Below, piece by piece: positions 17,723 to 50,364 of a stretch of 64,000 bases of DNA. A model generated the notes under the pieces. That model was not told where the DNA came from. It searched no databases and worked only from the letters and a program-made list of their open reading frames with translations. Source of the stretch: Isoetes taiwanensis (taxonomy: Eukaryota; Streptophyta; Lycopodiopsida; Isoetales; Isoetaceae); the NCBI GenBank assembly GCA_021234155.1, contig JAJEKV010000010.1, positions 7,476,871 through 7,540,870 on the forward strand, read 5' to 3'. Position 1 is the stretch's first letter. The number at the start of each line of letters is the position of its first letter. The position numbers were made by a program, and so were the translations under genes.

Positions 17723-18138
17723 TTAGCGTTCGGCACCGCTAATGGTTCCAAAGCTCCTGGGATTCGAAGCTGCTCTGCTTTCGTCTGCTGACATAGCTGA
17801 CACTCTTTGATGTAGCGAGCCACCTGCTTCTTCATTCCTGGCCAATAGTAGCTGCTGCGCACTTTGAAATATGTCTTCATAAATCCTGCATGGCCAGCTA
17901 TTGGACTGTTGTGGGTGTCGTGGAGAATCAACTTCCTTACACCTGATGATTCCGGCATGCACATTGTTCTTATGGTACAAGAGATTGCCTTCCTTCTTAA
18001 AATTTTTGAAGGTTTCTCTCTCCTTATCTGTTCTTGCTTCTCTGCATAAGCTTGCCCATACTTCCTTGAAGTCCACATCCGTTGGCAAGGATTCTTCAAT
18101 CTTCTTCCCGAAGTCGCTGGAGAGCGTCGAAATTGCAT
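17671..18138 (-). pseudogene. Element A integrase N-terminal zinc domain and first catalytic Asp
   Basis: Seen: the HHCC zinc-binding domain (H-D-T-H-N-S...G-H...C-Q-L-C-Q-Q-T-K), followed by MDFITGLP, which holds the first Asp of the DDE triad. It is reached from the RT/RNase H frame by a frameshift near 18050. The 3' side runs into a deletion, so integrase of this copy is dead. Confidence 0.85.
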
Positions 18139-19924
18139 TGCAATGCACTCTAGTTGTCAGGGGATGCCTTGAAAGCGCATCCGCTACCACGTTGAGCTTC
18201 CCCGGCTTGTAGACTATATCAAAGTCATACTCTTCGAGGAACTCCATCCACCTTCTCTGCCTCAGGTTGAGGTGTGGTTGCGTGAATACATACTGGAGGC
18301 TCTGATGGTCTGTATCCAATTGGAACTTCCTTCCTAAAAGATATTGCCTCCAGATTCTTAATGCCCTGACAACTGCAAGCAATTCTTGATCGTGCGTCGG
18401 GTAGCGCGTTTCGGCATCGTTCATCTTCCTGGAATCATACGCTACCACACGCTCTTCCTGCATGAGCACTGCACCTGTGGCTATCTTATTTGCGTCTGTC
18501 GCCACCAACTTGTCTTTCTCTGGGTCTGGCAGGGTTAAGACGGGGGCGGTTGTCAAAGCTTCCTTCAACAATTCAAACCCTGCTTGGGCTTTCTTGTGCC
18601 AATGGTCTGCCCAATCTTTCACCTTTTCCGCCCTCGTCAAGTTTGTTAGCGGGGCCGCTATCTTAGCAAAGTTCTTCACAAACTTCCTGTAGTACCCTGC
18701 TAGGCCGAGGAAACTTCTGACCTCATGCACATTCTTCGGTGCCGGCCACTGAATGACGGCTTCAATCTTGGCAAGATCCGTTGAAATCCCTTCCGCTGAG
18801 ATCACATGACCCAGGTACTCCACCCTCTCCGTTGCGAAGTGGCACTTCGACAACTTAGCGTACAACTGGTGCCTCCTTAATTTCTCAGGCACTCTCCTTA
18901 GGTGTTGCACGTGTTCCTCCAGGGATCTGCTATACACCAAAATGTCATCAAAGAATACTATCACAAAGGTGTCCAAGAACTCCCTGAAGATGTCGTTCAT
19001 GAGCCTCATGAATGTTGCTAGGGCGTTCGATAAGCCGAAAGGCATTACCGTGAACTCATAGTGCCCATACCTGGTCCTGAAAGCCGTTTTATGGACGTCT
19101 TCTTCCTTTATTCTGATCTGATGATAGCCCGACCTTAGGTCGATTTTGGAGAAGACCTTTGCCCCTTGGAGCTGATCCATCAAGTCGTCCGATCTGGGGA
19201 GCGCATGCTTATTCTTGATGGTGTGCTTGTTCAACTGCCTGTAATCTATGCACAATCTCAAGCTGCCATCCTTCTTCTTTACAAAAAGAATGGGTGCTCC
19301 AAACGACGAGACGCTAGGTCTAATGAAGCCTAGGTCGAGCAACTCCTGCAATTGCTTCTTTAGCTCCGTCAGCTCCTGCGTGGTCATTCTGTATGGGGCT
19401 TTGCTTGTCGGCTTCATTCCTGGTTCGAGTGCTATTTCACACTCGACTCCCCTATAAGGAGGGAGCTGCTTGATCTCACCTGGAAAGAGATCGTAGAACT
19501 CCGTGATCAACTTAGCTACTTGCTTGGGCAACTTGCTGGGCCCCTTATCTTCCTTACCTTCTTCTGATTCGGGCTCTTGGATCTCAAGCTTGAAGATATA
19601 TGCTACCTGCTCACTCGTTATGCACCTGAACATCTGCTTACTAGACATGCACTGCATAATGGGAACAACTTCTTTACCTGTGATCTCTATGATCTTGCCA
19701 TTGGGTGCTGTGAGGGTCACCTTCCGCTTTCCACAATCAATGAGGGCTCCTGCTGGACCAAGATACTCCATTCCAACGATTAAGTCATACTTTCCAATAT
19801 TCATTACCTCTGCCCCCATCTGAATGTTGATTCCCGGCAAATCAATGTCGAAGTTTATCCTTTTGCCTGCTGTATGCCTTACTCCCCCGTTTGCTAACAC
19901 CACGGGTCTTGGCTTGGACTTCAA
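17723..19924 (-). CDS. Element A protease end, reverse transcriptase and RNase H
   Basis: Copies the element's RNA into DNA. Seen: the C-terminal part of the aspartic protease ([14 protein letters not shown]), then the RT core with [29 protein letters not shown], the [11 protein letters not shown] block and the catalytic [10 protein letters not shown]. RNase H follows with the TDAN (usually TDAS), ELLAVV and TDHQSL motifs, ending in the ADALSRHP linker. 733 codons are open without a stop, the longest intact part of A. The last roughly 100 codons are a shifted, meaningless reading of the integrase region. One substitution stands out: LSNALATF where B and most relatives have NAPATF. Confidence 0.9.
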
Positions 19925-20330
19925 TGGCTTTCAACATCTCGACCATTCTTGGGGATGCAAAGTTATGGCTACTTCCCGAGTCTATCAGGACTATGAAAGA
20001 CTTGGCCTTGGCCTTCTCTACTGTGGAAATTACCTTATACTGGTTCTCTGCTTGTTCTGTATCTATTGCGGCAAAGATATGACACTCACCCTGAATATAG
20101 TCGCGGGCTGCCTCGCCGTCGTTGTCAGACGGAGTGTCCCATCCTCCCAACTCCGCTAGTGCTGCGCTCATGACGTAGGGGCGGTTCGTTGTCCTATGGC
20201 CTGGCTGGAAACACCTGAAGCAAAGCTGCTTTTCTATGCACTCCTGCCTCTTTTCCTTGGGCATTGCCTGCAAAAAGGACCACACTGCTTTGGAGTAGTT
20301 TGACCCCTCCTGCTTGTCCTTGAAGGACAC
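19842..20330 (-). pseudogene. Element A nucleocapsid zinc knuckle and protease
   Basis: Seen: a zinc knuckle CFRCFQPGHRTTNR in which the last Cys of CCHC is Arg (element B keeps Cys), so zinc binding is probably lost. An acidic linker follows, then the protease active site [15 protein letters not shown] (D-S-G). The frame then shifts into the pol frame near 19900. Family knowledge: the protease cuts gag-pol and acts as a dimer. Confidence 0.8.
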
Positions 20331-20400: not shown

Positions 20401-21390
20401 CTAGTTCCCTGCTGCCTTGCCTTTGTCTTGGTAATACTGCTGCCTCTGCCCGCTATTCTGAGGCCCCGTCCCTTGCAAGCTTATTGCCTTGGACTCTGCT
20501 TCTGATACTATCTTAGGGTTTGTTGCTCTTACAAGCTTGCAGATCTCATCATTCAGCCCCTCAATATAGCTCTCCACTGCATGTTTTTCACTCAACTTTG
20601 GCACATAAAACCTTAGTCTCATGAATTCCTCTGTATATTTTTGGACTGATTTGTTGCCTTGCTGCAACCTGTAGAACTGCTGCATCATGTTGGACTTGTG
20701 CTCTCTTGGGACGTAATGGCGCTTAAAAGCTTTAGCAAACTTTCTGAACCTGCAAGCATCCCTGCTTAACCCATGGGCCTTGGCATAATCCTTCCACCAA
20801 ATGCGTGCTGCTCCTTTCAGGTTGGCTGTTGCCACCCTGCCTTTGTCCTTGTCCTTCATACCATAGGCGTTACCATACTCACTCATCTCATCGAGCCAAG
20901 CCTCTGCCTCCATGCCTGACCTGTTCTCGCCTGAGAATTACTCGAGCTTCCTGGCCTTCCAAACGTTTCCCAATGCAGAGTCTACCTTCTTCTGGTAGTC
21001 GGAGGTTTTCGTCTCCTTGTGTCTGTCGTCCCTTCGGTCCTGCACTGGTTCAGCCTCTTCCTCGGAGTCAGAGTTTGAGTCCGAGCTTGAGTCGGAGGAT
21101 TCCGTGCTGGGGGACCTCCTTCTCTTGCTCCTCCTCTTGTCCTTTCCTGCTTTCCGAGCTGATGCTTGTGGCAACTGAGCGTTGCCCTCCAAATCAACTC
21201 CTGCTTGTGCGGCCAGGAAAGCCTTTATCTGCTCAAGGTCCGTCCACATCTGTGACATTTCCGCCTCTGGGGTCATGGGTCCAAATGCCTCATACAGGTT
21301 CCTTGCCGGGGGTGGCCTGGGCGGGGTCTGTTCTTCCCTATGGTCTCGGCGTTGTCGTTCCCTTGAGCCTGTGCCTCTAGCTGCAGACAC
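20401..21390 (-). pseudogene. Element A gag
   Basis: Forms the virus-like particle. Seen: an N-terminal part rich in Arg/Pro with M-T-P-E-A-E-M, a Ser/Asp/Glu repeat tract, then a TAA at about 20936 where B has CAA. The gag core continues with AWLDEM, ARIWWKDYAK, F-A-K-A-F-K-R-H-Y-V-P-R and Y-T-E-E-F-M-R-L. No ATG opens the N-terminal frame. Just upstream the minus strand reads TTGTGTCTGCAG, a good 3' splice site, so gag may be translated from a spliced RNA or from an internal Met. A frameshift near 20400 separates it from the zinc knuckle. Confidence 0.85.
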
Positions 21391-21806: not shown

Positions 21807-23349
21807 TGTGACGTTCCAAGTATTTATACGGTCTACGTATAAATATATTGACACGTCACCAGTATAGACACGCCACCCTGGGGTATGATAACCTAGGGGG
21901 TTGGCCACGAGGGATTTAATTAGCTATGTTAAATTAATTATAAAGGATAATTATCTAAATACTTGCTATTAAGTCACCTAATGGTGGGAAAGCGCCACTT
22001 GGCATAACCTGAGTGATCAGCATGGGGGTTGCTAAACTGAGCCACCAAAGGCAGCGCCACCCCATCCTGCCCCCATTATCGACCCAGCCAGCACCAGGGA
22101 GCAGCTAAGCGCTCAAGGAACAGTTGCTGAACATTCCCCAATCGCCAAGACACCCTCTAGTGTCGCTGCCACCCCAGTACAGCACTATGGAAGCACCCCT
22201 TGACAACGGGTCCAGCCGAAACACTGGTTAGTGGTAGCTTAACTTGCAAATTGTAGAATAATACTTTGGTGTTCTTCTCTGACTAGTTGGTTGAGATTAA
22301 CCCTTCTTTGGTAACTAGGAATACTTTTCAATTATGAATGATGCTCTGTTATGGAATGGTCGATGTCTCTATGAGTTAGTTCAGTAGTTCCAGTAAACAA
22401 GGGTTAAGAGGGGGGTAGAGGCCTCTGAACTTGAGTATAGAATGCTCCTAGTAGTTCCTTTAACACCCTACTAATTGCGGCCTGTGTACAAGAGCCCACC
22501 GGGTCATAGACGCTATGGTCCGGCTTAGAACCGGACAAGGGACACACAAGGTGGAAGTAGGGGTGGGGTCTTGCACGAGCATAAAAGGCTCCCGAGACTC
22601 CTACATGGGCTAGGCCTGATGGCCTGTCCACGTGGGGCGGGTATGGGTCCGACACTCCACAGGTGCGCTGGTGTGACCCGTATGGGGCACCATGCACTTT
22701 GAGTAGATTTAGGGTGAGTAAGTTGGGTGCGGATCTGGGAATACGACGCGGCACGTGTTCTCTAGCTCATCCATGGAACCATTGTGATCCTGGAAGGGGA
22801 CGCTTCCCCGACCTGCCTCATCGGACCAGGTGTCATGATCCTGGAGTAGGCTCAAAGGGTGATACCTTGAGTCTGCGTCTCCGGAAGGCTATAGCGAAGC
22901 CATAGCGTGAATCGAGGGGCGGATGGAGTGGACAATGTTCTATGCCAGCCAACGCCATGCCAAGACTCGGTCTGCTGATCTCCTGAGACCCCGCCGTCAG
23001 TCGCTCCTCACTAGAGTCTGAGCTGGGGTAGAACCTGGGTTTTTTGGGTGTTTTCCTAGTTTAGATGCATATTCTTTGCCGTTGGTACTTGGATGGATGT
23101 GCCACCCCTCGTGGTGGTTATTTATATGTGATTTATGTTGTATGCTAACCTTGTATTCATGCTTCCGCGACGTAGGAGCCCCATTGAAGGCGTGGGCCGA
23201 ATGACCCCTTCGTGTCCTTCTTTTGGGCATCATTTCATAGATGGCCCGGAACAGACAGAGGGCCCTGCTCATGGCACGTTGGTTGCCATGGGAGGGGAAA
23301 GTCCCCGTATGTGTACGGCCGGTGTCATATATATTCAGGGAGCGTCACA
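21807..23349 (+). repeat. Element B 5' LTR
   Basis: 1543 bp, TGTGACGTTCC...CGTCACA. A TATA-like CATAAAAGGC lies near 22580, about 770 nt in, similar in place to that of A. The second LTR starts TATGACG (G to A at base 2). It lacks about 20 bp near its start and has an extra block near 34285, so the copies have diverged. Confidence 0.9.
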
Positions 23350-23350: not shown

Positions 23351-23362
23351 TGGTATCAGAGC
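23351..23362 (+). promoter_or_regulatory. Primer-binding site of B (initiator tRNA-Met)
   Basis: TGGTATCAGAGC, one base after the LTR. It is the usual complement of the 3' end of plant initiator tRNA-Met. A second copy is at 34753-34764 after the next LTR. Confidence 0.9.
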
Positions 23363-24134: not shown

Positions 24135-25394
24135 ATGGCCAACACCAAGAGTGCTCCGGATCCTACCAACCTTACCATCGTCCAGATTTATGCCTTGATT
24201 GCTCGGAATATGGCTACCGACCCTGCTTTGATCGACATACTCCTGGACGAACTAGTAAACAGGTTTGAGAACAATGATAGGATTCCCTATCCTATTTACC
24301 ACTTCTCGGAGCCATTTTTGATCCGGTTGAACCTTCGCCAGCTCCCTTACACTATGGCCGAGCAACCTGACTTGGTCATGATGCTGATTAAGTTCTACCC
24401 TCCCGAATGTGAAGGGCACACAGAGTAGGAGGACATAAGGGGGGAGGCCGATCGCATCCGAAACTTGGCCAGAGAGGATGACCGCCAAGAGATAGAACGA
24501 GCCGATACGGCGGCTCGGGGCAGGGAGTACAGGTACCTCGGGGATGGGGTCGCCGTCATAGATGGCCGGGCCATCGAGATTCCCCCATACCGATGGGATG
24601 AGGACTCTTGCAACTTCATATGGGGGGAAATCCCAGATATTAGCATAGATTATTTAATAACCATCCAGATTGACATGGCCCAGAGACCCGACCGGTACCA
24701 TGCTGAACTTCTTCGCCGGAGTGCCGCACAACACTTTGCTCAGGTTGAAGAAGATCTTAGAAGAGCCCGGGAATTCCGGGAAGAGCAGGATAGGATAGAA
24801 CGGGAGAGAGCGGAGAAGGCCCGACAGGAGCAGCCGGACCAGCAGGGTGCAAGAGCATCTGGGAGTGGGCAGAACCCAATCCCGACAGAGCATATAACTG
24901 TGAAGCACCGGAGGAAAGCCGTAGCCCGGAAGTCCGGCAGTCAATACAAGGAAAAATTAAAGACTGTCGGGGCTTTTGGGAAGAACGCAAGTTCCAGCCA
25001 GAGGCAGCAGCGGGTGGACGCGTCCCGACCAGCTGGTGGGGCCAAGACCGTGCCTGCCTCAAGGGGGCCGCCTCCAAACCCTGCTCCACAAAGGAAGCCT
25101 CACCAATTTAGACCCGGTACCGTGGCCTTGCGGGAGATCCGCAAGTTTCAGAAGTCAACCCAACTTCTGATACGGAAGCTCCCCTTCCAGAGGTTGGTCC
25201 AGGAGATTGCCCAGGAGTTTAAGACCGACCTCCGCTTCTAGACCTTTGCCATTTTGGCACTTCAAGAGGCTGCGAAGGCTTACCTGGTGGCACTTTTTGG
25301 TGACGCCAATCTTTGCGCGATCCACGCAAAGAGGGTAACCATAATGCCTAAGGATTTAGCCCTCGCCCGCAGGATTCGGGGGGAGCATCCTTAG
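24135..25394 (+). pseudogene. Element B ORF1: histone H3-fold fusion protein (two nonsense codons)
   Basis: One frame of 419 codons, ATG directly after a splice-acceptor-like CTCCACAG. Seen: it starts M-A-N-T-K-S-A, possibly a decayed H3 tail. A helical domain of unknown kind spans about residues 10-95, then a charged coiled coil ([18 protein letters not shown]) at about 220-245, a Ser/Pro/basic linker, and from about 323 to 419 a near-canonical histone H3 fold. Key blocks are [56 protein letters not shown] and LARRIRGE. The H3 Cys110, His113, Lys115, Lys122 and Asp123 equivalents are present. Stops: TAG at codon 98 (the second B copy has GAG) and TAG at codon 369, where H3 has Gln68. Apart from these, the frame is intact. 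It is not an ordinary histone gene: it is three times too long and lies inside an LTR element. Confidence 0.92.
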
Positions 25395-25590: not shown

Positions 25591-26439
25591 ATGGCAGCCG
25601 CTGACCTTCTCGCATGGTATCAAGACGGAGAACACTGGGATCCGCAAGTCCATTTTGACCTGTTGCGGCCCCTGCTATGCCAGCGCTTAGACCTCATCAC
25701 CAACATGCACCGGCACCCGGATTATGCCGGATTCCTAGACTTCTATATCGAGGAGATGCTTCCTTTGTGTATCCCTCTTGGGGATCCTCCCCAACTGTAT
25801 CTCGAGAGGGAGGTAGTCCGGGAGATGTTAGGGGGCGACACCCATGCCTATGATGTACTCAAGGGAAAGCTCAGATGGGGCAAACACCTGCCCGTTGTGC
25901 AGCACCAGGGGCGGCAATATCTTGAGGTTGCCTTCGCCCTAGCCATCCTCATGGACCAATACGTTGAGGATGAAACCTTGCCTGTAGAGAAAGGCAAACT
26001 CCCTGAATCTTCTGAGGAGGGAGATGATGAGCATATAGGTATGGGCGATTTCACCCGTTGGAAGCAATTGGCCGAGGAGATGCCACCACACCGCGAGCAA
26101 GCTACATGCTTGTCAGGGCTAGATGCCCTTCCAGTTATTTATCACCAAGGGCAAGAATATCTTCTCTTGGATGATATTATCTGGACTTATCACATGGTGG
26201 CTGGATTTAGGTGCAAGCGTAAAGACCATGTGCTTTATGAGCTTGCGGAGTATTGTATGGATGATTTCATCGACTTCACTTCTATTGAGCTACCTCCGGA
26301 GGTGCAGCAGCTGCTCCAGTTCCGCCAAGAGACCATAGAGCCGGCTGAAACTCTACTACGTCTTCGGGAGCTGGTGATGCAGGAGCCTGCCTCTCAGCCC
26401 TCACAGGACGCCTCATGTCCCAAATATCAATATGGTTGA
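25591..26439 (+). CDS. Element B ORF2, unknown accessory protein
   Basis: 282 codons opening GCCATGGCAGCC, a good plant start context. I do not recognise the family. Seen: no signal peptide or membrane segment; acidic overall. A module occurs twice: L-P-V-V-Q-H-Q-G-R-Q-Y-L-E-V (about residue 107) and L-P-V-I-Y-H-Q-G-Q-E-Y-L-L-L-D-D-I (about 180). Each is followed by helical sequence. An acidic Ser/Glu/Asp stretch lies between. The second module is clearly shared with A's ORF2 (EEYLLLSDI...DDFI), so the gene is a conserved part of this element family. It overlaps ORF3 by 8 bases (ATGGTTGA); ORF2 and ORF3 may be one gene split by a shift or a translation-coupled pair. Confidence 0.75.
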   Translation: MAAADLLAWYQDGEHWDPQVHFDLLRPLLCQRLDLITNMHRHPDYAGFLDFYIEEMLPLCIPLGDPPQLYLEREVVREMLGGDTHAYDVLKGKLRWGKHLPVVQHQGRQYLEVAFALAILMDQYVEDETLPVEKGKLPESSEEGDDEHIGMGDFTRWKQLAEEMPPHREQATCLSGLDALPVIYHQGQEYLLLDDIIWTYHMVAGFRCKRKDHVLYELAEYCMDDFIDFTSIELPPEVQQLLQFRQETIEPAETLLRLRELVMQEPASQPSQDASCPKYQYG

Positions 26440-26974
26440 GATTCCCTCCGGTTCAGATGATGAGGGAGAGGATTTGTACCACAATCCTGCTCATTTGAAG
26501 GAAGAGCAGCAGGAACTTAAGGAAGAAGAGGTCCCTATGGATTTAGATAAGGAGGTGGCCACATCAGAGACCCCGCAAGGGAAGGTATTGGGCAACCACC
26601 TTACCCGCTTCTTTCTATCAGCCATTCGACAGGGGCAAGTTCTTTTTATAGCCCGAGATTTAGGGCCGGAGGCTGAAGCTTCATGGTGGACTCTTCGTGC
26701 TCTCTCCACATTGGCCGGGCACAAGAAGCTCCCCTATCGTACGTTTACTTATGTACTCGTGCGACGGGATCTTGCCCTGACGGCCTTGGGCCAAGATATT
26801 GCACCCTGGATGAGCATGAAGCTCCTTACGGCAGCCCCATTGGCTGTTGCCTATCCACCAGAGGTTGCATCTATTGCGGCTGCCACAGTAGACCCCAGGG
26901 TGACTCTGCTGCGACACCGACCGCCACCACCACCTCCTAGGTCTACAAATGAAGAGGGAGGACCTAATTCTTAA
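26432..26974 (+). CDS. Element B ORF3, unknown accessory protein
   Basis: 180 codons, overlapping the end of ORF2. Seen: an acidic N-terminus (S-D-D-E-G-E-D), then a predicted helical core with F-F-L-S-A-I-R-Q-G-Q-V-L-F-I-A and Y-V-L-V-R-R-D-L-A-L-T-A-L. The C-terminus is rich in Pro (six in a row) and polar residues. The core may be a third, weaker copy of the ORF2 module. A remnant of a related protein remains in A at 21557-21806. No known family; function not assignable. It could be the C-terminal half of ORF2 rather than a separate gene. Confidence 0.6.
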   Translation: MVEIPSGSDDEGEDLYHNPAHLKEEQQELKEEEVPMDLDKEVATSETPQGKVLGNHLTRFFLSAIRQGQVLFIARDLGPEAEASWWTLRALSTLAGHKKLPYRTFTYVLVRRDLALTALGQDIAPWMSMKLLTAAPLAVAYPPEVASIAAATVDPRVTLLRHRPPPPPPRSTNEEGGPNS

Positions 26975-28619: not shown

Positions 28620-28623
28620 GTTT

Positions 28624-29676
28624 ATGCGCTTGAGACTGTATGTACCAGGTATGAATGAAAAGAGGGCAGTGTCAATCAAACGAATGGTTAAGGCCATAGA
28701 CCCAAAATCAGTGGCAGAGGCGGAGGCTAAAGCATTGAGCCTCGAGGAGGACACACCAAGAAACCAGTATCAGCGTCCTGCTCCTTATTCGCAGCTACGG
28801 CCGTCCACACCGTACAAACCCCGGTCGCCAAGTCTGGGCCCCTCTCAGCAGAATTCCTATGGCCGCCAGGAAAAGAAAGTTACCTTCACCACGGCGGATA
28901 AACAGAGCAATGTCGGTAAGGAAGTACGGAACCTCTTACAGTCTATTCCTAAGGAGGCCCGAGAACAGCTCCACCGGGATAAGGCATGCTACAGGTGTAT
29001 GCGGCCCGGGCACTTTATGCACAATTGTCCTTATGTTACGCAGACTGCCCAGCTGGCCATGGCCGACCTCGATTGGGACGATCTAGAGTCGACCTTACCT
29101 GTCGAAGAGGAGGCTCCCGAGTACATTCACGGTGCGTCTCATATCCTTGCAGCTATAGAAACCGGCAATGCGGAAAGTCAGCCTACTGTCATTTCCACCA
29201 TAGGTCAAGTAGACAGTAAGCCTTTCATAATTCTTATGGATACGGGAAGTACACATAATTTCGCTTCTCCTAGGATGGCCCAGGTCTTACAGCTTGAAAC
29301 ATTAAGGTCCCGACTGAGGCCTGTCACTCTAGCCAGTGGTAAGGTCAGGCATACTCATGGCCGTCGCATCAACCTTAAGATGCAGTTTCCAGGCGCACCA
29401 GTTGCTTTGGGTGCCGAGTTGATGGATATTGGCAAATACGACCTCATTGTTGGTATGGAATTCTTGGCATCTGCAAAAGCCAACATAGAATGCGAGAAGA
29501 GGGAAGTTACCTTCAACGCAGCTAATGGAGCCCGCGTCACTATCAAAGGTGAACCATTCAACCCTATCATGCAGTCTATCTCCATCAGGCAGTTAGATAA
29601 AGCTATACGCAAGGAGAAGCTCCTTTGCATCATTAGCCTTGCGTCCATAGAGTCAGATGCTAAACAGAGCAAGTAA
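28624..29676 (+). CDS. Element B gag end, zinc knuckle and protease
   Basis: 350 codons. Seen: the end of capsid ([15 protein letters not shown]), shortened by about 10 residues relative to A. Then a Pro/Tyr-rich linker, a complete CCHC knuckle [14 protein letters not shown], an acidic linker, the protease active site [15 protein letters not shown] (D-T-G) and the flap/hydrophobic region [13 protein letters not shown]. The frame ends at a TAA just before RT, where a one-base shift separates it from the next frame. The protease itself looks intact. Confidence 0.85.
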
Positions 29677-29684
29677 TCGATACC

Positions 29685-31691
29685 TTGCCAGAGGGGATTG
29701 CTCATCTTCTCCGGGAATTTGGTGACCTTTTCCCAGATGAGATTCAGAAGCTCCCTCCTTTTAGAGGGGTGGAATGTGAAATAGCTTTAGAGCCGGGTAC
29801 CAAGCCTCCCAGCAAGGCCCCGTACCGTATGAGTCCTCCAGAATTGGCAGAACTTAAGAAGCAACTTCAGGAGTTACTAAACCTAGGGTTCATCCGACCT
29901 AGTGTTTCGCCTTTTGGCGCTCCTATTCTCTTCGTTAAGAAAAAGGACGGCTCGCTGAGGATGTGTATTGACTATCGGCAACTCAACAAGCATACCATCA
30001 AGAATCGCTATGCTTTGCCTAGAGCAGATGACCTAATGGATCAGTTGCAAGGGGCTAAGTATTTCTCAAAGATTGATCTACGCTCCGGATACCATCAGAT
30101 AAGGATTAAAGAGGAGGACATCCATAAATCCGCTTTCCGCACTAGGTATGGGCATTATGAGTTTACAGTTATGCCTTTTGGATTAACTAATGCCCCAGCA
30201 ACTTTCATGCGACTAATGAATGATGTCTTTCGACAATACTTGGATGACTTTGTTGTTATTTTCTTTGATGACATTCTCATCTATAGTAAGACCCTGGAGG
30301 AGCATGAGAAACATCTTAGATTGACCCTACAAAAGCTAAGGCGTCATCAGCTCTATGCCAAGTTCTCTAAGTGCAAGTTTGCCACTCCAAAGGTCGATTA
30401 TTTGGGCCATATCATTTCGGCAGAGGGAATTGCTACAGACCCGGCAAAGATAGAAGCCGTAAGAGAATGGCCTATTCCAGGGAATGTTTCCGAAGTCCGC
30501 AGTTTCTTGGGATTAGCAGGATATTATCGGAAATTTGTAAAGGATTTTGCGAAGATTGCAGCTCCTCTTACAAATCTCACAAAGCACGAGAAGGTGAAAG
30601 ATTGGATGGAGCACTGGAAGACAAAAGTTCAGGGGAGTTTCCACCAGCTCAAGGATGCCTTAACATCAGCACCAGTTCTCACATTGCCCGATCCTGAGCA
30701 GGACAAGCTAGTGGCGACGGATGCCAGTAAAATTGCCACCGGTGGAGTCCTCATGCAGGAGGGGAGAGTTATTGCCTATGACTCAAAGAAAATGAACGAA
30801 ACAGAGCAGCGGTATCCTACCCATGATCAAGAATTGTTAGCCGTTGTTCGTGCCTTGCGAATATGGAGACACTACCTCCTTGGTAGAAGATTCCAGTTGG
30901 ATACGGATCACCAAAGTCTCCGTTATTTATCCACCCAGCCAAATCTCAACCTCCATCAAAGAAGATGGATGGAATTTCTGGAGGAATATGATTTTGAGAT
31001 TATGTATAAGCCTGGCAAGCACAATGTGGTTGCAGATGCATTGTCACGCCATCCCTTGGTGACCCGAACCCATTGTAATGCCATTTCTACACTCACCAGT
31101 GAGTTTGGGAAACAGATAGAGCAGACCTTGGTCACAGATCCGGAGTTCCGTGACATTTGGGATAGTTTGGCTAAGGAAGCTCGCACGGATAGGGAGCGCG
31201 AAGCCTTTCGTGTATATAAGAAAGAGGGCAACTTATTATATTACAAGGATAAGTTGTGTGTACCTGAGACTTCAGGAGTACGTAAGCTCATTCTTCATGA
31301 CACACACAATAGCCCTATAGCTGGACACGCAGGTTTTATGAAAACCTACTTTAAGATTCGCTCCAGCTATTTCTGGCCTTCTATGAAAAAGGACATTGCC
31401 AGATACATTAGGCAGTGTCAGGTATGCCAGCAAACTAAAGCTGAACAGTTAAGGATCCCAGGTGAGTTACAACCTCTAGATGTGCCCAACGCCAAATGGG
31501 AAGTGATAATCATGGATTTCATTGTGGGCCTTCCAAGAACCCTCCGAGGATATGATGCCTTGATGGAATTGTGGTCGACAAATTGTCGAAAATGGCTCAT
31601 TTCTTGCCATGTCGTACCACGGATACAACCTTTGATACTGCCTTGCTATTTGCCAAGGAAATCTTCAGATTACACGGAATGCCACGAGTAA
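29685..31691 (+). CDS. Element B reverse transcriptase, RNase H and integrase N-terminal half
   Basis: 668 codons. Seen: RT with [34 protein letters not shown] and the catalytic [10 protein letters not shown]; RNase H with TDAS, ELLAVV and TDHQSL; linker ADALSRHP. Integrase HHCC follows (HDTHNS...GHAGF...CQVCQQTK), with the first catalytic Asp in MDFIVGLP. After about 31560 the frame is wrong. A further deletion at about 31692 removes the region holding the second catalytic Asp (present in A), so the integrase is dead. RT and RNase H appear complete. Compared with A, residues are very similar across the whole RT. Confidence 0.9.
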
Positions 31692-31740
31692 TTGTGCATT
31701 CTGGAAAGATTTCTTTGCCACCATTCAGACCAAGCTTGCT

Positions 31741-32616
31741 ATGAGTACAGCATATCATCCTCAAACAGATGGTCAGACAGAACGTACCAATCGCATTATC
31801 GAGGATATGCTAAGAAGTTATGTGTGGAGTAAGCAATCACAATGGGCTGACTATATTTATCTAGTCGAGTTTGCCTATAACAGCATGAAATGGGAGTCTT
31901 CCAGAATGTCTCCCTTCATGATAAACTATGGTTACCAATGTCTTACTCCAGACACATGGCATAACCCCGTTTCTAAGGTGGAGGTTTCCCAAAAACTCCT
32001 CCTGGAGATGCAAGCTCTAGTCAAAGAAGTTCGTGGCTACTTATTAGCTGCGCGCAGTCGTCAGAAGAGTGTAGCCGATAAGCACAAAACCCCACGCGTC
32101 TTTCAGGTGGGCGAATCAGTTTGGCTTAAGATTAAAGTGAAGCAAGCCAAGCTTAAGATTGGCAACTGCAAAAAGTTGGCCCCCAGATGGGCTGGACCGT
32201 TCAACATTATTGAGCGCGTTGGAGAGCAGGCATATCGCTTGGAATTGCCGCCCCGCTTGAAGATCCACACGGTCTTTCACGTGAGTCTTCTGAAACAACA
32301 CACTCCTGATCCAGAGGAGGTTTTGGATACCCCAATCCTCCTAGAAATGACAGAAGAGCAACTCGAAATAGTGCCTGAAACTCTTCTTGATCGAGCTTAC
32401 AAACAAACCAGAAGGACTCAAATGTTGCAATACTTGGTTAAGTGGAAACACTTACCAGTTGAGGATGCTACGTGGGTGATGAAGATAGACCTTGACAAGC
32501 ATTATCCGGACTTCATGCGCGAATCTGAAGGCCGCAACATCAACGATGCTATCAACCCCGCAGCCGGCGGTAAGCTTAGAAGCTTGATTGCCGGGAGTAG
32601 CGCCTTAGAGGGGTAG
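31741..32616 (+). CDS. Element B integrase C-terminal half with chromodomain
   Basis: 291 codons. Seen: HPQTDGQTERTNR with the catalytic Glu, a helical region, the GPY/F module (APRWAGPFNIIERVG), F-H-V-S-L-L-K, then a complete chromodomain at about residues 205-255: E-T-L-L-D-R-A-Y-K, YLVKWKHLPVEDATWV and D-K-H-Y-P-D-F-M. This marks the element as a chromovirus. Family knowledge: such chromodomains bind histone tails or heterochromatin factors and guide integration. The element therefore encodes both a histone-fold protein (ORF1) and a chromatin reader. Confidence 0.9.
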   Translation: MSTAYHPQTDGQTERTNRIIEDMLRSYVWSKQSQWADYIYLVEFAYNSMKWESSRMSPFMINYGYQCLTPDTWHNPVSKVEVSQKLLLEMQALVKEVRGYLLAARSRQKSVADKHKTPRVFQVGESVWLKIKVKQAKLKIGNCKKLAPRWAGPFNIIERVGEQAYRLELPPRLKIHTVFHVSLLKQHTPDPEEVLDTPILLEMTEEQLEIVPETLLDRAYKQTRRTQMLQYLVKWKHLPVEDATWVMKIDLDKHYPDFMRESEGRNINDAINPAAGGKLRSLIAGSSALEG

Positions 32617-33193: not shown

Positions 33194-34751
33194 TATGACG
33201 TTCCAAGTATTTATACGGTCTACGTATAAATATATTGACACATCACCAGTATAGACACGCCAGGGGGTTGGCCACGAGGGATTTAATTAGCTATGTTAAA
33301 TTAATTATAAAGGATAATTATCTAAATACTTGCTATTAAGTCACCTAATGGTGGGAAAGCGCCACTTGGCATAACCTGAGTGGTCAGCATGGGGGTTGCT
33401 AAACTGAGCCACCAAAGGCAGCGCCACCCCCATCCTGCCCCCATTATCGACCCAGCCAGCACCAGGGAGCAGCTAAGCGCTCAAGGAACAGTTGCTGAAC
33501 ATTCCCCAATCGCCAAGACACCCTCTAGTGTCGCTGCCACCCCAGTACAGCACTATGGAAGCACCCCTTGACAACGGGTCCAGCCGAAACACTGGTTAGT
33601 GGTAGCTTAACTTGCAAATTGTAGAATAATACTTTGGTGTTCTTCTCTGACTAGTTGGTTGAGATTAACCCTTCTTTGGTAACTAGGAATACTTTTCAAT
33701 TATGAATGATGCTCTGTTATGGAATGGTCGATGTCTCTATGAGTTAGTTCAGTAGTTCCAGTAAACAGGGGTTAAGAGGGGGATAGAGGCCTCTGAACTT
33801 GAGTATAGAATGCTCCTAGTAGTTCCTTTAACACCCTACTAATTGCGGCCTGTGTACAAGAGCCCACCGGGTCATAGACGCTATGGTCTGGCTTAGAACC
33901 AGACAAGGGACACAGTGGTGAAGTAGGGGGTGGGGTCTTGCACGAGCATAAAAGGCTCCTGAGACTCCTACAGTGGGTTAGGCCTGATAGCCGGTCACGT
34001 AGAGGGCCGGGTATGGGTCTGACACTCCCTGGGTGCAGTGGTGTGACCCGTATGGGGCACCATGCACTTTGAGTAGATTTAGGGTGAGTAAGTTGGGTAC
34101 GGATGCGGGGGTCGCTGACGCGGCACGTGTTCTCTAGCTCACCCATGGAACCACTGTGATCCTGGAAGGGGACGCTTCCCCGACCTGCCTCATCGGACCA
34201 GGTGTCATGATCCTGGAGTAGGCCCAAAGGGTGATACCTTGAGTCTGCGTCTCTGGAAGGCTATAGCGAAGCCATAGCGTGAATCGACCCATCTGCAAAG
34301 TGTGCACAGGAGGGGCGGATGGAGTGGACAACCCTAGCCGATGTTCTATGCCAGCCAACGCCATGCCAAGACTCGGTCTGCTGATCTCCTGAGACCCAGC
34401 CGTCAGTCGCTCCTCACTAGAGTCTGAGCCGGGGTAGAACCTGGGTTTTTTGGGTGTTTTCCTAAATTAGATGCATATTCTTTGCCGTTGGTACTTGGAT
34501 GTGCCACCCCTCGTGGTGGTTATTTATATGTGATTTATGTTGTATGCTAACCTTGTATTCATGCTTCCGCGACGTAGGAGCCCCATTGAAGGCGTGGGCC
34601 GAATGACCCCTTCGTGTCCTTCTTTCGGGCATCATTTCATAGATGGCCCGGAACAGACGGAGGGCCCTGCTCATGGCACGTTGGTTGCCATGGGAGGGGA
34701 AAGTCCCCATATGTGTACGGCCGGTGTCGTATATATTCAGGGAGCGTCACA
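33194..34751 (+). repeat. Element B second LTR
   Basis: 1558 bp, same ends as 21807-23349 with TA for TG at the start. It serves as the 3' LTR of B and, at the same time, as the 5' LTR of the truncated second copy, because a primer site follows at 34753. Confidence 0.9.
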
Positions 34752-34752
34752 G

Positions 34753-36181
34753 TGGTATCAGAGCCGTGATTTCGGTTGCTCGAAATCATAGCACTGGCCA
34801 AACACTAACTCGTAGTACGGTAGTTAGGAGGAGGCTATGTTAATGTGTTGTTAGTCCTCTTTGATGTTTGGTTCGGTGTTAGGTTAAATTAAGAAATTGT
34901 AGCTTTAAAGAAGATAGGGCGACTGGAGGGCCCAAGGTTGGAAGAGTTGTAAATGTCAGTGGGTAACTCAAATGATGGAGAAAGTGGTTCCATTGGATCG
35001 ATCGTACTCAAATTACCCTAGGACAGTCGTCTCCGGCAGGAAAATGGTCAAGGGCAAGCCCAAAAAACTAACTCGGGCGCCGCTTGCTTTCCATCGTCTT
35101 GCAGTCACGGTGGGAGAGCCGAAAATGCAGCCGGCGCCCGACCGTACAGATGGGAGTCAACGCGGCCCCGAAAAGTCAACTCCGGCATCGCTTGCTTTTC
35201 GACGACTCCTAGTCGAGGCGGGAGCGCGTATAATGCAGCCGGCGCCCGACCGTAGGTGTCGCGTATTTTCCCCGTATAAAGTATTTTATGATAATAAAAT
35301 TTAGAAGTTAAAAAGAAAAATTTTAAAATTTCAAAAGTTAACTGACCGTTAAAATTTCTTTTTGTCGTTTTGTTCGCCTAGCCTTCAGCGCCTTCGACCG
35401 CCGGAACCGACGCCCGCCATCGCCGCCTGATCTGACCTTGCTTTTCCGCCTTAGTGCTCCGCTAACCTTAGCGCCCCCATTGCCGTCTCCCTTGCCGCCA
35501 GCGCCTCACTGCCTGCCATCTTATACCTTCGCGCCACAGCTATGGCCAACACCAAGAGTGCTTCGGATCCTACCAACGTTACCATCGCCCAGATTTATGC
35601 CTTGATTGCTCGGAATATGGCTACCGACCCTGCTTTGATCGACATACTCCTGGACGAACTAGTAAACAGGTTTGAGAACAATGATAGGATTCCCTATCCT
35701 ATTTACCACTTCTCGGAGCCATTTTTGATCCGGTTGAACCTTCGCCAGCTCCCTTACACCATGGCCGAGCAACCTGACTTGGTCATGATGCTGATTAAGT
35801 TCTACCCTCCCGAATGTGAAGGGCACACAGAGGAGGAGGACATAAGGGGGGAGGCCGATCGCATCCGAAACTTGGCCAGAGAGGATGACCGCCAAGAGAT
35901 AGAACGAGCCGATACGGCGGCTCGGGGCAGGGAGTACAGGTACCTCGGGGTGGGGTCGCCGTCATAGATGGCCGGGCCATCGAGATTCCCCCATACCGAT
36001 GGGATGAGGACTCCCGCAACTTCATATGGGGGGAAATCCCAGATATTAGCATAGATTATTTAATAACCATCCAGATTGACATGGCCCAGAGACCCGACCG
36101 GTACCATGCTGAACTTCTTCGCCGGAGCGCCGCACAACACTTTGCTCAGGTTGAAGAAGATCTTAGAAGAGCCCGAGAATT
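34753..36181 (+). mobile_element. Truncated second copy of element B (leader and part of ORF1)
   Basis: Primer site, leader with the GGCGCC palindromes (35073-35252), TATA region and ORF1 from 35542. The ORF1 copy keeps GAG where the first copy has a stop, but has a one-base loss near 35948. It ends abruptly at GAATTC (36181), before the H3 fold. The next base belongs to A. An LTR-internal-LTR-internal order is the expected product of recombination between LTRs, followed here by a deletion into A. Confidence 0.85.
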
Positions 36182-36942
36182 CTGAGGCTCGGGAAGTCTG
36201 AGGCTCCCCGGACGATGAAGTCGTCCAAATCTGGTTGCTGCCGTAGTTGGTGCAGCAACTCATCAAGCCGGAGCTCCCTGTCCCTGCATTCGGGGAGATT
36301 CTGAATGTCGCTGAGGAGCAGATACTCCTCACTGTCGATGATGATGGGGGCTAGGCTTGTGATGCCTAGCCCAAGTGGGGGAGCGACTCTGAGGGTCTGC
36401 CGGCTCCGCTCGAAGTTGGTTAGCTCCTCTTCTGCTTGCCGCCATTCTTCCTCTGGGTCGAGCTCCGTGTACTCTTCCTCGTCCGATTCCTCTTCTTCTG
36501 ACCTTCCTTCCTGCTCTTGCTGGTACTGCAAAAGCATCTGTTCTGCTGCTGAGGCTGCTATGGGGTCTACCTCCATGGGAGGAATAGAGGTTCCCCCCAT
36601 TGGGTTTTCAGCACGGTGGGAAAGGAGAAATACTTGGTCCTGCCAACTGTCAGGACCATGTAATCTGGCAGCCTCTGTGCCTTGTTGGTCAAGTACTTGG
36701 CGATGTTCGGGACATCACCCAAGGCTGCTTGAAGAGATGGGCGGGGAACAAAATAGCCTGTGCAAGGGGGTAGCTGCACTAGGGAGGGTCCTACCCTAGC
36801 TTGGAACTCGGCTAAGACTTGCCTATATGCCGGGGTTGCGTGCAGAGTGGCTTGGACATCTATCTCTTTCGATGTCGTTGACATCCGCCTCGGCAGCATG
36901 GGCACTGGCGTTGTACCATCGCCTAAAGTCAGCAGTTGCCAT
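36182..36942 (-). pseudogene. Element A ORF2 (frameshifted, 3' end lost)
   Basis: Starts CCATGGCAACTGCTGAC, matching B's GCCATGGCAGCCGCTGAC. As in B, a pyrimidine-rich 3' splice site (CATCTTCCTTAG) ends four bases before the ATG. Seen: M-A-T-A-D-F-R-R-W-Y, an early shift, then D-V-P-N-I-A-K-Y-L and M-V-L-T-V-G-R-T-K-Y-F-S-F (module 1). Another shift follows in a run of G at about 36590, then an acidic stretch (SEEEESDEEEY) and module 2, E-E-Y-L-L-L-S-D-I...L-D-D-F-I. It runs into the element B junction at 36182. Function unknown; homology to B's ORF2 is clear in module 2 and at the start. Confidence 0.7.
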
Positions 36943-37055: not shown

Positions 37056-37521
37056 TATTTATAGAAAAGTGAAAAACCCTAATTTTTGGATGACTTAGAA
37101 ATGTATTGGGTTTGGGAAATTCTGACCTATTAGGAGGTCCAAATGAGAATTTGAAGACTACTTTTGGGGTTTGAGCATGTTAAGATCAGCTAATGAACCT
37201 ATTGCAACAAACTGGAGGTCATTTGGATATGGCATAGTGGAGAAAATGCTGAGAGGTCTCACACGTTGTGCCCAGACCGATAATGAACTTTTCATTTTCT
37301 GTCCTGGCGCGACGTGTGAGACATTGACTCTAATTGGGTTAAACTTGTCCAATTTGGGTGATGTAAGGGTCTAATTCCACTGGAATCGTCGAGTTAGGCA
37401 GAATTGACCCTTATTTGGTCAATTTGGAGCAGTTTTGGGCATTTTTGGGGCATGGTCTCACACGTTACGCCCAGCCCGAAAATGAAAAGTTCATTTTCTG
37501 TCCTGGCGCGACGTGTGAGAC
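37056..37521 (-). promoter_or_regulatory. Control module upstream of A ORF2
   Basis: Two 67-bp palindromes (37455-37521 and 37256-37322) of the form GTCTCACACGT...GCGCCCAG / CTGGCGCGACGTGTGAGAC with an inner GAAAATGAA/TTCATTTTC stem. Then TATAAATA at 37056-37063, CCCCCATTTC, and ATG about 115 nt further. The same module precedes ORF1. Confidence 0.7.
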
Positions 37522-37665: not shown

Positions 37666-38940
37666 TTAAGGGCGCTCTCCCTTGATGTGGCTAGCAAGAT
37701 GCATGTCTTGCCTCATGAGTGTCACCCTCTTCGCCTGAACTGTGCAGGCTGTCGAATCCTCAAAATGCTGCACCAGTTTTTGCTCCGTTGCCTCTTGCAG
37801 GGCCAGCAACATCTCGTCGGTCACCCTCATATCCGTGTTGTACTCGTGGATGACCTCTCGGACTAGGCGGACGAACGGTGCACGGGGGATCAAAAACCCG
37901 TAGCTACGCTGAAAATGCCTGATCTCCTTGAGGGCTCTCCTCTCAGTCTCCTTCCTACCGGTCCTCTTCTTCCCTGGTGGTCTAGGAGGCTTGGGCTTCT
38001 GTGGTGGCGGCTTCAGAGTTTGGCTCTTCGTCAGGTGTCCGCCTTCGATAGTTCTCACTCTGTGCTCCTGATAATACACGTTGTACGCCTCCCACTTCAC
38101 CATAAAGGCGTTGTGCTCCCTCAGCTTCTTTTGATAGACCTTGACGGGGTCTATCACGTACGCCTCTTGCTGTGGCCGCGGTGCTTTGGCCTTATCCCAC
38201 GTCGGGTATGGTGGGGCCTTCTGCGCCTGCTCGGGCTGCTCCTGATCGGGTACTACCTGCTCAACAGTTGGGGGTTTTGAAGAGCTTGCACCCTCGGTGT
38301 TGGGGACGTAGTCTTCGTCGGAATCATCGGAGGAGGGCGGGGGCTGGTCAGCTGATGGTTCGTTGATGACGAAACCCTTTACCCGCTTAACATTCACGAG
38401 TTTCCTTTTGCCCACCTTCACGACCTTCGCCTTCCTCTTCTTCAGCTCCTCAGCTGCGTTCGGCTCCTCCTCTTCCTTCTTTCTCTTCTTTTCTTGATGG
38501 CGCTCTTTGGCTTCATGCTTCTTTATCCACGGCGCCAGTTCTTCCTCCTCAGCTGGCTCGAGTCTCGGCTCCCTCTGTTCCTCTCGCTCCTCGGCCCGAT
38601 CTTGTTCTTCCTTCTTCTTCCTTTCCTTCTCGGCCCGATCTTGTTCTTCCTTCTTCTTCCTTTCCTCCTCCTCCACTTCTTCAAGGATCTTCTGCATGAC
38701 GTCCGGCTGCTCTTCGTCTAGGACCTCTGTTCCCGCGTCGGAGTGTGCATCCTCTTCCACTTCTGTCTCGCCCTCTTCTTGGTCATTGTTGTTGCTGGGG
38801 TGCTCCTCGGACAACTCTCCCTCGCTTGTTGAAGATTGGCCTCTTTGCTGAGCGACGTGCTGTCGAAGCATCTCTTGAAGTAGGGCGCTGGGAGGAGTAA
38901 CACCTGGAGGGACTCTAGCGGTCTGTTTCGTCCGGGCCAT
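37666..38940 (-). CDS. Element A ORF1: histone H3-like protein with H3 tail and H3 fold
   Basis: 424 codons, open throughout, ATG at 38940. Seen: residues 2-9 are ARTKQTAR, identical to H3 residues 1-8; then V-P-P in place of K9-S10-T11. An acidic Ser/Glu region (to about 95) follows, then a highly charged coiled coil with a repeated KKEEQDRAE unit, a basic stretch (KVVKVGKRKLVNVKRVK) that could be a nuclear signal, an acidic D-S-D-E-D patch and a Pro/Lys linker. From about 325 to the end is an H3 fold: ERRALKEIRHFQRS, FLIPRAPFVRLVREV, LALQEATEQKLVQHFED, AKRVTLMRQD, H-I-K-G-E-R. Loop 1 has canonical H3 length, so it is not CENH3-like. The H3 His113 position is Gln and Lys122 is Gln; Cys110 and Asp123 positions are kept. 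It is much more divergent from canonical H3 than B's copy. Likely nuclear; role unknown. Confidence 0.95.
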   Translation of the reverse strand: MARTKQTARVPPGVTPPSALLQEMLRQHVAQQRGQSSTSEGELSEEHPSNNNDQEEGETEVEEDAHSDAGTEVLDEEQPDVMQKILEEVEEEERKKKEEQDRAEKERKKKEEQDRAEEREEQREPRLEPAEEEELAPWIKKHEAKERHQEKKRKKEEEEPNAAEELKKRKAKVVKVGKRKLVNVKRVKGFVINEPSADQPPPSSDDSDEDYVPNTEGASSSKPPTVEQVVPDQEQPEQAQKAPPYPTWDKAKAPRPQQEAYVIDPVKVYQKKLREHNAFMVKWEAYNVYYQEHRVRTIEGGHLTKSQTLKPPPQKPKPPRPPGKKRTGRKETERRALKEIRHFQRSYGFLIPRAPFVRLVREVIHEYNTDMRVTDEMLLALQEATEQKLVQHFEDSTACTVQAKRVTLMRQDMHLASHIKGERP

Positions 38941-39038: not shown

Positions 39039-39427
39039 TATTTATAGACGGGCCATTTTAGGTCAATTTTCAAACTACTCTTTTGGGTCACCTAAAACAC
39101 CTAAAACACCTAAAACACCTAAATTTAAGGATTTCTAACCTCATGGTCTTACACATTGCGCCCAGACTGAAAATGAAAGTTTCATTTTTGGTCCTGGCGC
39201 GACGTGCGAGACATGGTGGATTCTGATGCTAAATTTTATACTTTCTAAGCATGTTTTTAGGAATGTAACATACTAATTCTAGCTAATTCCTAGCTTAAAA
39301 TTCGAATTACCAAGTTATTTTTCTGAAATTCATGACTTTTTAAGGTGTTTTGGGCTCAATGTCTCACACGTTGCACCCAGCCCGAAAACGAGATTTTCAT
39401 TATCTGTCCTGGCGCGACGTATGAGAC
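39039..39427 (-). promoter_or_regulatory. Control module upstream of A ORF1
   Basis: 67-bp palindromes at 39361-39427 and 39146-39212, then four CACCTAAAA repeats (39089-39124) and TATAAATA at 39039-39046. ATG lies about 100 nt further. Palindrome length, order and the bases around the TATA box match the ORF2 module. Confidence 0.7.
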
Positions 39428-39584: not shown

Positions 39585-39596
39585 GCTCTGATACCA
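39585..39596 (-). promoter_or_regulatory. Primer-binding site of A (initiator tRNA-Met)
   Basis: TGGTATCAGAGC on the minus strand, one base from the LTR end at 39598. Same tRNA and spacing as element B. Confidence 0.92.
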
Positions 39597-39597: not shown

Positions 39598-40525
39598 TGT
39601 GACGTCCCCTACTCATATACGGTGCACTCACCGTATACGAACAGGAGTTCATCCCCCATACCAGCTCCATGCTGATACAGGGCCCTCCACATAACACTGC
39701 AACCGTAATGAGTTCCAGTGGGAAGAGTGAAGGGGTCATTTACCCCGTCTCCCTCAGGGCCTACCTAGCTGCGGAAGCGTAAACATACATGTCAGTATAC
39801 AATAACATCACATATCCACCTCGAAGGGTGGTACATCAACGTCTGCATAGACAAAGATCAGCACAATACATATGGGAAAACTTACCCAAGGCTCAGACTC
39901 GAAGGGGTGACTGACGGCTTGGGTCTCCAGAGTTCATTGCAGACAGAATTCATGGCAATGGATTTGGCTGGCATAAGAGCATGGCTTAGGGTTGTCCACT
40001 CCATCCGCCCCTCCTGTGCACACTTTGCAGAGTAGGCTGAAAAGTGTTGGGACCTGACTGTAGCCCGCCGGATGCATAGCCAAAGGGGCTATTCCTGGGT
40101 TGCATCTCCCCAGTTCCGATGGGGCAGGTAGGGATCTCTCCCTCCAGAGATTTACGTGTTGACTCAAGGTGACTAGAGGGCCACTGCCCTTGTTCGACTT
40201 GAACCCACTGGAGAGTGACGCATCACCCCACGGGTGTTGAGCCCATGCCTTGCCCTCACGCAGTGGCAAGCCATTAGGCCTAGTCTACAATGATCCTTGG
40301 CAAACTTTACACACCAGAGGGATCGTTCAAGAGTCAGAACACGAACCTCTTTATAATCCAGTCTGGCCCCCTTCACCCACGACCAGGTATGGCTCTTGTG
40401 CATAGGCCGCATCTACAGTGTGCTAGAGAGGCTAATCTAGGAGCATCTACTACCAAGCTTGAGGTCTCTACCCCCCTTCCCAATACAATGAGTTCACAGA
40501 GATACATCATCCATATACATCACAT
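39598..40525 (-). repeat. Element A 5' LTR, inner part
   Basis: 928 bp, near-identical to 14221-15148. The LTR is cut by the CACTA-like element and continues at 49701. CAT at 40523-40525 is the left target duplication. The TATA position reads TTATAAAG-like near 40350. Confidence 0.92.
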
Positions 40526-42161: not shown

Positions 42162-42231
42162 CTGTCTATGATTTCCAAGCAGCCATCAGAATCGAACTGT
42201 CTATGATTTCCAAGCAGCCATCAGAATCGAA
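42162..42231. repeat. Exact 35-bp tandem duplication
   Basis: CTGTCTATGATTTCC...ATCAGAATCGAA occurs twice in a row without change. A short AAGAAGC run follows at about 42270. Both lie inside the CACTA-like element. Confidence 0.85.
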
Positions 42232-47835: not shown

Positions 47836-47849
47836 CCTGGGTCCGCCAC

Positions 47850-49510: not shown

Positions 49511-49700
49511 TAAAATGACATGTGACAATAGAAGAAACTACAAAACAACAGTGGATGTTTTAGTCCACTGAAAAAAGAACACCATTATCAAACAAAACCA
49601 TACCTCCACAAATCCACATGTAGGATTCTTTGAAAACAGGACATGTAGACCTACCAAAACTGATGTTTTCAACAGTGGACCAAAAACCGGGGTGAGTGTG

Positions 49701-50364
49701 CATAAGAACTAAAGAACTAGATCTAATCTATATCATGGAGTTAGGTTCTTTAGTTAGAGTCTGGTATCTGGGGATCTAAGTGGCTGCTATGGGCAATTTA
49801 ATAGGCTAAACCTACTGATACAATGACTGGAAGACGGTTTAGGCTATTAGATTGACCAAATACCTGATCCTTGGCTCGCTCCTCCTGCCCTGAGTTCGAT
49901 CATCCTGCTGAGCTGCTTGAAGATGGAACCAACAAGGAAAACTAATGGTGCAATTCGCTTAGACAGAGTCTGGGAGGCGGTTTTGACTCCTGGGGCAGGC
50001 AAAACCGAGCTCTAAAACCCTATGGATGAAAATGGCAAGTTAGGGTTTCTTCCTACCTAAATAGATAAGGGGTTAGGGCTAGGGTTTCCAATTATCCCTT
50101 TAAGCATGTGGGATAATTGGGAATGGCCCACTTGCCTTTAATGGCTAGGTGGCATAAAGGTATCCACATGGAAAGGTGTGCACCTTAATAAATGTGCACA
50201 TTGGTAAATGTGCACATTAATAAATGCACATACCTTGCAAGTTGCCCCCTAGGGGCTACCCGCCTGGCTACACGTCGGCGTACACGTCAGTCGAGGTGGC
50301 GTGTACGAGTGACGAGGCAGTACAGTATACGTCCTGGGACCGTATACTGTGCTGGAACGTCACA
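49701..50364 (-). repeat. Element A 5' LTR, outer part
   Basis: Continues the LTR after the CACTA-like element and ends CGTCACA at 50364, next to target duplication CCTTC (50365-50369). With the inner part the LTR is 1589 bp, the same as the 3' LTR. Confidence 0.92.

Follow-up and report, generated by a model that had tools for sequence, protein, structure and literature searches.

A histone H3-like protein encoded between the primer binding site and gag of a Ty3/Gypsy retrotransposon of Isoetes taiwanensis

Introduction

Additional open reading frames (ORFs) are known from long terminal repeat (LTR) retrotransposons of plants (PMC7264820; this and the other papers cited here are drawn on as excerpts), and orchid Gypsy elements carry an extra ORF for a host-derived m6A demethylase that is able to act on host regulation (PMC9289625). 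The word 'histone' does not occur in the excerpts of the former paper, and those of the latter name no histone fold among the extra domains in LTR elements of 121 angiosperm genomes. In group II chromoviruses, the domain order is protease (PR), reverse transcriptase (RT), RNase H (RH), integrase (IN) and chromodomain; the chromodomains lack cage residues, their partner has not been identified, and the excerpts do not mention an H3 ORF (PMC3350952, PMC6317226). H3K9me2 and other marks help to silence plant LTR elements, and a model exists in which the end of the integrase of a centromeric element from wheat binds the H3 variant CENH3 (PMC12786077). Here, we analyzed a stretch of 64,000 nucleotides from Isoetes taiwanensis (GenBank assembly GCA_021234155.1, contig JAJEKV010000010.1, positions 7,476,871 to 7,540,870 of the forward strand; hereafter the window), in which a Ty3/Gypsy retrotransposon, element A, carries an ORF (ORF1) for a histone H3-like protein, and a second element, B, nested within A, carries another. 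Element B has the domain order of group II chromoviruses, but both A and B possess the H3 ORF and further ORFs before gag. LTR elements that have captured a host gene are a known kind; what is unusual here is that the extra gene encodes a core histone and includes the tip of the signalling tail. An original prediction, made from the letters of the window alone, held that no described LTR retrotransposon is known to carry a histone H3, and our search of the open-licence literature by title and start of abstract, with subscription papers and preprints outside it, likewise found no retrotransposon-encoded H3.

Results

ORF1 of element A is an uninterrupted ORF of 424 codons on the minus strand (38940-37666), with the coordinates given by the original prediction. 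Residues 2-9 are exactly ARTKQTAR, the first eight residues of H3, and the DNA encoding MARTKQTAR (38914..38940, minus strand) was the single match in the window to a degenerate DNA pattern for this peptide (last base of the last codon omitted, up to 3 mismatches allowed, whole window searched); it had 0 mismatches, against 0.01 matches expected from 100 shuffles, which rules out a chance origin of the tail. At the other end of the protein, the Pfam Histone profile (PF00125) matched residues 310-419 with E=1.1e-23 (84.3 bits; cut-off 26.4), and the best sequence matches in PDB were nucleosomal H3 chains (H3.1/H3.2/H3.3; E=1.9e-23); among the matches listed, all those bearing a histone name were H3. 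A chance origin of the fold is ruled out by these values. The fold, comprising alphaN, alpha1, alpha2 and alpha3 (37669..37956, minus strand), aligns with canonical H3 over 88 residues at 50% identity without a gap, so the claim of a whole H3 fold free of loop changes stood. NCBIfam profiles gave no match to ORF1 of element A or B.

The predicted structure agrees with this assignment. An AlphaFold2 model of the last 107 residues (mean pLDDT 82.8) contains helices at 12-29, 36-49, 58-85 and 93-102, which is the alphaN-alpha1-alpha2-alpha3 layout of H3 with an alpha2 of 28 residues. A Foldseek search with this model returned nucleosome or chromatin complexes in all 50 matches listed (best E=4.3e-8). 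Since these matches have an rmsd of about 5-12 A, the identity of the fold rests on sequence and helix layout. The whole protein gave a poor model (mean pLDDT 59.3), in which the insert appears as long helices and disorder. Virus-encoded histones occur in large DNA viruses as fused doublets and are not products of an LTR element with an H3 N-terminus. A parallel among the fold matches of the whole protein is the Marseillevirus nucleosome (7lv8; a weak match, E 0.86), where a mobile genome likewise supplies its own core histone.

Although ORF1 A shares with canonical H3 both the ARTKQTAR N-terminus and the complete fold, it is 424 rather than 136 aa long and borne by a retrotransposon, and about 310 residues, mainly coiled-coil and disordered, replace the tail from residue 9. 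The prediction of an authentic H3 tail therefore held for residues 1-8 only, because K9 is V and the insert follows. No equivalents of K9, K14, K27 or K56 could be read from the sequence and the ARKS motif is absent; length and tail thus depart from what characterizes canonical H3 (about 135 aa; K9, K14, K27). Judged by its sequence, ORF1 A is an H3 variant, not a canonical H3.

Element A extends from 50364 to 14221 on the minus strand and possesses two LTRs, a primer binding site (PBS) and a 5-bp target site duplication (TSD), GAAGG, at both ends. Its 3' LTR (14221..15809, minus strand), placed by repeat comparison and boundary inspection, is followed by the TSD and preceded by a purine-rich tract. 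An insertion of about 9.2 kb (40525-49700) divides the 5' LTR into an inner part (39598..40524, minus strand; 98.0% identical to 14221-15147, end set by boundary inspection) and an outer part preceded by the TSD (49701..50364, minus strand; 97.0% identical to 15146-15817, start set by boundary inspection). The PBS, TGGTATCAGAGC, starts at 39596 (39585..39596, minus strand). ORF1 begins about 650 bp past the PBS, i.e., between the 5' LTR and PBS on one side and gag on the other. The gag region comprises two ORFs (20401..21390, minus strand; PF03732 and PF19259 in 20401-20913) and is followed by PR, RT, RH and IN, identified by Pfam and by alignment to B and split across several ORFs (16724..20330, minus strand). 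Here also lies an integrase chromodomain region that is homologous to that of B but interrupted by an in-frame stop. The predicted position between 5' LTR and gag was accordingly found, in a Ty3/Gypsy element; as to the chromovirus label, the chromodomain region is interrupted in copy A and intact in B.

Element B lies within element A on the plus strand (21807-36182) and is a truncated tandem, consisting of LTR, internal part, LTR, PBS and partial ORF1, that ends inside element A. In B, an H3-fold ORF occupies the identical slot between PBS and gag (24135..25394, plus strand). It is decayed, with two in-frame stops that were read through for search purposes only; so read, it has a MANTKSA start, a long insert containing an ARKS motif, and an H3 fold that shares 78.6% identity with canonical H3 across 98 residues (Pfam Histone 4.4e-39). 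A host gene inserted in this one copy of the retrotransposon, an alternative that the original prediction had set against its own claim, is ruled out by the homologous ORF in B; the other, an H3 profile without a significant match, fails on the Pfam and PDB values given above. Altogether, the prediction of a retrotransposon-encoded H3 variant is supported.

For the residue-level comparison with nucleosomal H3, we assumed that H3 numbering and residue roles apply to both ORF1 proteins. In gap-free alignments, ORF1 A keeps R69, R72, R83, C110, K115, R116, T118, D123 and L126, and has the substitutions K56R, R63P, K64R, H113Q, K122Q, R128S and R129H. ORF1 B keeps R63, C110, H113 and D123 and has R72Q. 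These positions are kept in nearly all rows of the aligned database relatives, and B and these relatives also retain alphaN and a RIRGER-type C-terminus. The H3-like family, as judged from these residues, looks nucleosome-competent. Loop 1 is gap-free relative to H3 in both A and B. A tail tip with A1, T3 and K4 combined with an H3 fold is common to A, B and most of the aligned relatives, and the MA.TK start is nearly invariant across the alignment.

A database search with the ORF1 A fold found 24 proteins at E <= 0.001, and an alignment-based search found 149 proteins, of which the best 120 were listed; the two listings were pooled into 132 distinct proteins. Among the matches listed, MA.TKQT starts 97 of the 132 (exactly MARTKQTAR in 77), 94 have MA.TKQTA.K and thus K at position 9, and 74 combine the tail with the H3-fold motif at lengths of 352-453 aa. 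The entries starting with MA.TKQT come from ENA. The many rows lie mostly on separate contigs and include some forms cut before the fold, the pattern expected of a repeat family, and the MA.TKQT relatives are likely retroelement genes. In each of the five pairs of relatives compared, conservation was higher in tail and fold than in the insert (residues kept in tail, fold and insert, respectively: P0045/P0007, 12/15, 76/95 and 144/263; P0045/P0002, 14, 81 and 129/264; P0007/P0002, 12, 83 and 222/309; P0113/P0007, 10, 71 and 71/244; P0113/P0045, 11, 64 and 64/253). The middle block of the database family matched P0113 (E 2.5e-9, single comparison) and, weakly, P0114 (0.0034) and P0001 (0.015), and was not found in A or B; its match to P0118 is inflated, as P0118 itself is in the profile. 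In P0001, an H3-tail-like sequence from about residue 13 adjoins the fold and an inserted block lies nearer the N-terminus, a layout that hints at the origin of the long H3 genes. P0118, a 197-aa H3-like protein with 80 member sequences, starts MARTKSVARK, contains a block that looks helical and has a longer loop 1; it is possibly a separate high-copy H3 variant family.

Scans of viral contigs and genome contigs gave no relative with DNA context. The H3-tail pattern occurred at 10 loci in the genome contigs, 0 of the long form: full 136-aa canonical H3 at L006, L007 and L010, cut or exon-like H3 pieces at L003, L008 and L009, a sequence that begins as H3 and then departs at L004, and short, chance-like tail-only matches at L001, L002 and L005. 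A by-eye comparison of the H3-like and pol relatives, among the matches listed, revealed no contig link.

Upstream of ORF1 A, a TATA box (TATAAAT; 39040..39046, minus strand) is present as a consensus match only, 106 bp before the ATG, and a second one, again a consensus match only, precedes the ATG of a broken ORF2 (36183..36942, minus strand; identified by translation) by 121 bp. The regions upstream of the two ORFs are diverged duplicates, each with two GTCTCACACGTCGCGCCAGGAC-type modules; aligned, the module upstream of ORF1 (39145..39427, minus strand) is 68.6% identical to its counterpart upstream of ORF2 (37255-37521). The repeated modules are possibly shared regulatory sequence, and from this arrangement we infer that ORF1 and ORF2 are expressed separately. 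The segment 37253-37524 is similar to its own reverse complement as well. The insertion that splits the 5' LTR contains two 19-bp tandem repeat arrays in mutually inverted orientation (44076-45130 and 47816-48785) and inverted arms (45129-45492/46488-46851), and is perhaps a foldback-type or Mutator-like DNA element.

The LTRs of element B (5' LTR, 21807..23349; 3' LTR, 33194..34751; plus strand) were delimited by boundary inspection of a 95.3% identical repeat (21806-24776/33193-36182), and inspection also placed the PBS (23351..23362, plus strand). The truncated tandem copy (34753..36182, plus strand), recognized from repeats and alignment, holds a second PBS, leader and partial ORF1 (from 35542) that lacks the first stop of the other ORF1 copy but carries a separate frameshift. 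For B, a TSD could not be assigned, since the right end is the truncated tandem. Between ORF1 and gag lie further ORFs (25591..26974, plus strand), 25591-26439 and 26432-26974, which overlap by 8 bases and have no Pfam match; extra pre-gag ORFs are present in A too. ORF2 of A and of B both begin MA(T/A)AD; a tblastn search of the window with ORF2 of B found no other significant place, and homology to ORF2 of A is not claimed. Pfam gave the order PR-RT-RH-IN from 28624..31691 (plus strand), ending with the integrase start, and the C-terminal part of the integrase (31741..32616, plus strand) contains an intact chromodomain (PF00385 4.4e-8). In an alignment to solved chromodomains, with cage positions assigned from HP1, the second position is occupied by W and the third by L, and no aromatic residue was placed at the first. 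Cage residues one and three thus appear to be missing from the chromodomain of B, which matches the definition of group II (PMC3350952, PMC6317226). In an RT search with B, 7396 of 8000 candidates passed; among the best 120 of these 7396, land plants and the green alga Closterium account for most of the matches, all of them at <=64% identity.

Elsewhere in the window, two consecutive non-LTR retrotransposons with endonuclease and RT matches occupy 55222-63175, each preceded by an ORF without Pfam match. An HSP70 first exon with a transit-peptide-like N-terminus lies at 10394-11005 on the minus strand (PF00012 7e-44) and perhaps belongs to a plastid HSP70 gene.

Discussion

That tail tip and H3 fold are retained together speaks for a protein that joins chromatin as an H3 and exposes the H3 N-terminus. 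With about even confidence, we propose that ORF1 encodes an H3 variant of a chromovirus-type LTR retrotransposon that is made separately and resides in nucleosomes with an altered tail. Extrapolating from the sequence, fold class and position of ORF1 to promoter use, H4 pairing, deposition and purpose, the protein would be made from its own short transcript, directed by the TATA box that lies 106 bp upstream of the ATG, would pair with host H4 via the histone fold and would be incorporated into nucleosomes on the DNA of the element or close to it. The tail, which retains A1, T3 and K4 and in copy A has lost the equivalents of K9 and K27, would present the H3 N-terminus to readers while silencing marks would be denied or redirected, and the protein may also serve as a tether for the element's own integrase chromodomain. 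We favor such a replacement H3, one that alters the chromatin of the element or of its target, because H3K9me2 and other marks aid the silencing of plant LTR elements and because group II chromodomains are without an identified partner.

Several observations weigh against this proposal. R63, H113, R128 and R129, which we take to be DNA or H3-H3' interface contacts, are all changed in A, so that copy A may itself form nucleosomes poorly. Between A and B, the two elements of the window, first codon positions differ more in the fold (0.48) than in RT (0.22), a sign that constraint on one or both ORF1 copies is relaxed, and dS is saturated, so that no dN/dS is available. ORF1 B is broken and its tail is merely MANTKSA. 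In a tree of 47 folds, B groups with ordinary-looking H3s (with P0111, 96/75), A sits on a long branch with no resolved position, and the database family forms one cluster (88/81) with A and B outside it; constraining A and B to group together gave p-AU 0.209, short of rejection. Separate H3 captures in A and B are therefore possible. A single origin is neither shown nor rejected, and the number of captures says nothing for or against a shared function.

The same data bear on the idea that ORF1 is a captured passenger, a host H3 gene picked up and carried along with no role in the life cycle, which we regard as unlikely, albeit the most probable of the alternatives. Capture of host genes by LTR elements is known (PMC7264820), and separate captures in A and B are compatible with the tree test. 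The fold of A is far more diverged from H3 (50% identity) than that of B (79%), and the folds of A and B (45-49% identical, gap-free; 49% in this comparison) diverge far more from each other than do their RTs (78%); by these figures, the ORF1 A fold is one that has drifted much further than the pol of element A. The two stops in ORF1 B would suit a passenger as well. On the other hand, the ORF is found in two elements that, in RT, differ at the third position of 0.60 of codons, and the fold stayed gap-free though the inserts of A and B diverged so far that no convincing alignment of one to the other was obtained. In addition, ORF1 A is intact despite a pol split over several ORFs, the first stop of ORF1 B is not common to both B copies of the ORF1 start, and tail and fold motifs co-occur in 74 of the 132 relatives among the matches listed.

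Slightly less probable still is that ORF1 acts outside nucleosomes as a tail decoy, its ARTKQTAR end occupying the writers, erasers and readers of the H3 tail while the fold serves to bind H4 or a chaperone. Such a role would fit the nearly invariant N-terminal MA.TK and the loss in A of several positions thought important in nucleosomes, and the long helices predicted in the insert could multimerise the protein. However, a complete fold, including alphaN and a RIRGER-type C-terminus in B and the relatives, exceeds what a decoy needs.

We consider it rather improbable, more so than a decoy, that ORF1 is a packaging or targeting partner, acting either by coating the cDNA or by entering the pre-integration complex and steering the integrase; the chromodomain might for this purpose bind the tail of ORF1 itself. 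The chromodomain of B is intact and, by the HP1 cage positions, appears to be without the first and third cage residues, and chromodomains of this class have no known partner (PMC3350952, PMC6317226). K9 is missing in both A and B, so any binding would differ from the classical K9-methyl mode, and a separate promoter, as the TATA consensus match would indicate, speaks against tight coupling to gag. A CENH3-like centromeric H3 variant for reaching centromeres is very improbable and its identity not supported: the long, divergent N-terminal part and the CENP-T_C and CENP-S matches in B, both sub-threshold, would suit it, but the loop-1 insertion relative to H3, which we take as the criterion for CENH3/CENP-A, is absent from the gap-free loop 1 of A and B, the best PDB sequence matches of ORF1 A are H3.1/H3.2/H3.3, a CENP-A nucleosome entry came just at rank 18 in the whole-protein fold search, and the fold tree places neither A nor B with Arabidopsis CENH3 (weak support).

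Returning to the proposal of a nucleosomal H3 variant, we tentatively extend it, with less confidence than for ORF1 itself, to mobile elements more widely. These may carry a class of H3 variants of their own that preserve the tail tip and the fold and have element-specific modules in place of the mid-tail, writing element-encoded nucleosomes that would act against silencing marks or as the ligand of group II chromodomains. LTR retrotransposons are silenced partly via marks on the H3 tail, and some of them read chromatin through integrase chromodomains. Should the ORF1 protein be incorporated into nucleosomes, the substrate of the silencing system would be edited by the very selfish element which that system silences, and, if this is true, the question of what group II chromodomains bind would become directly testable.
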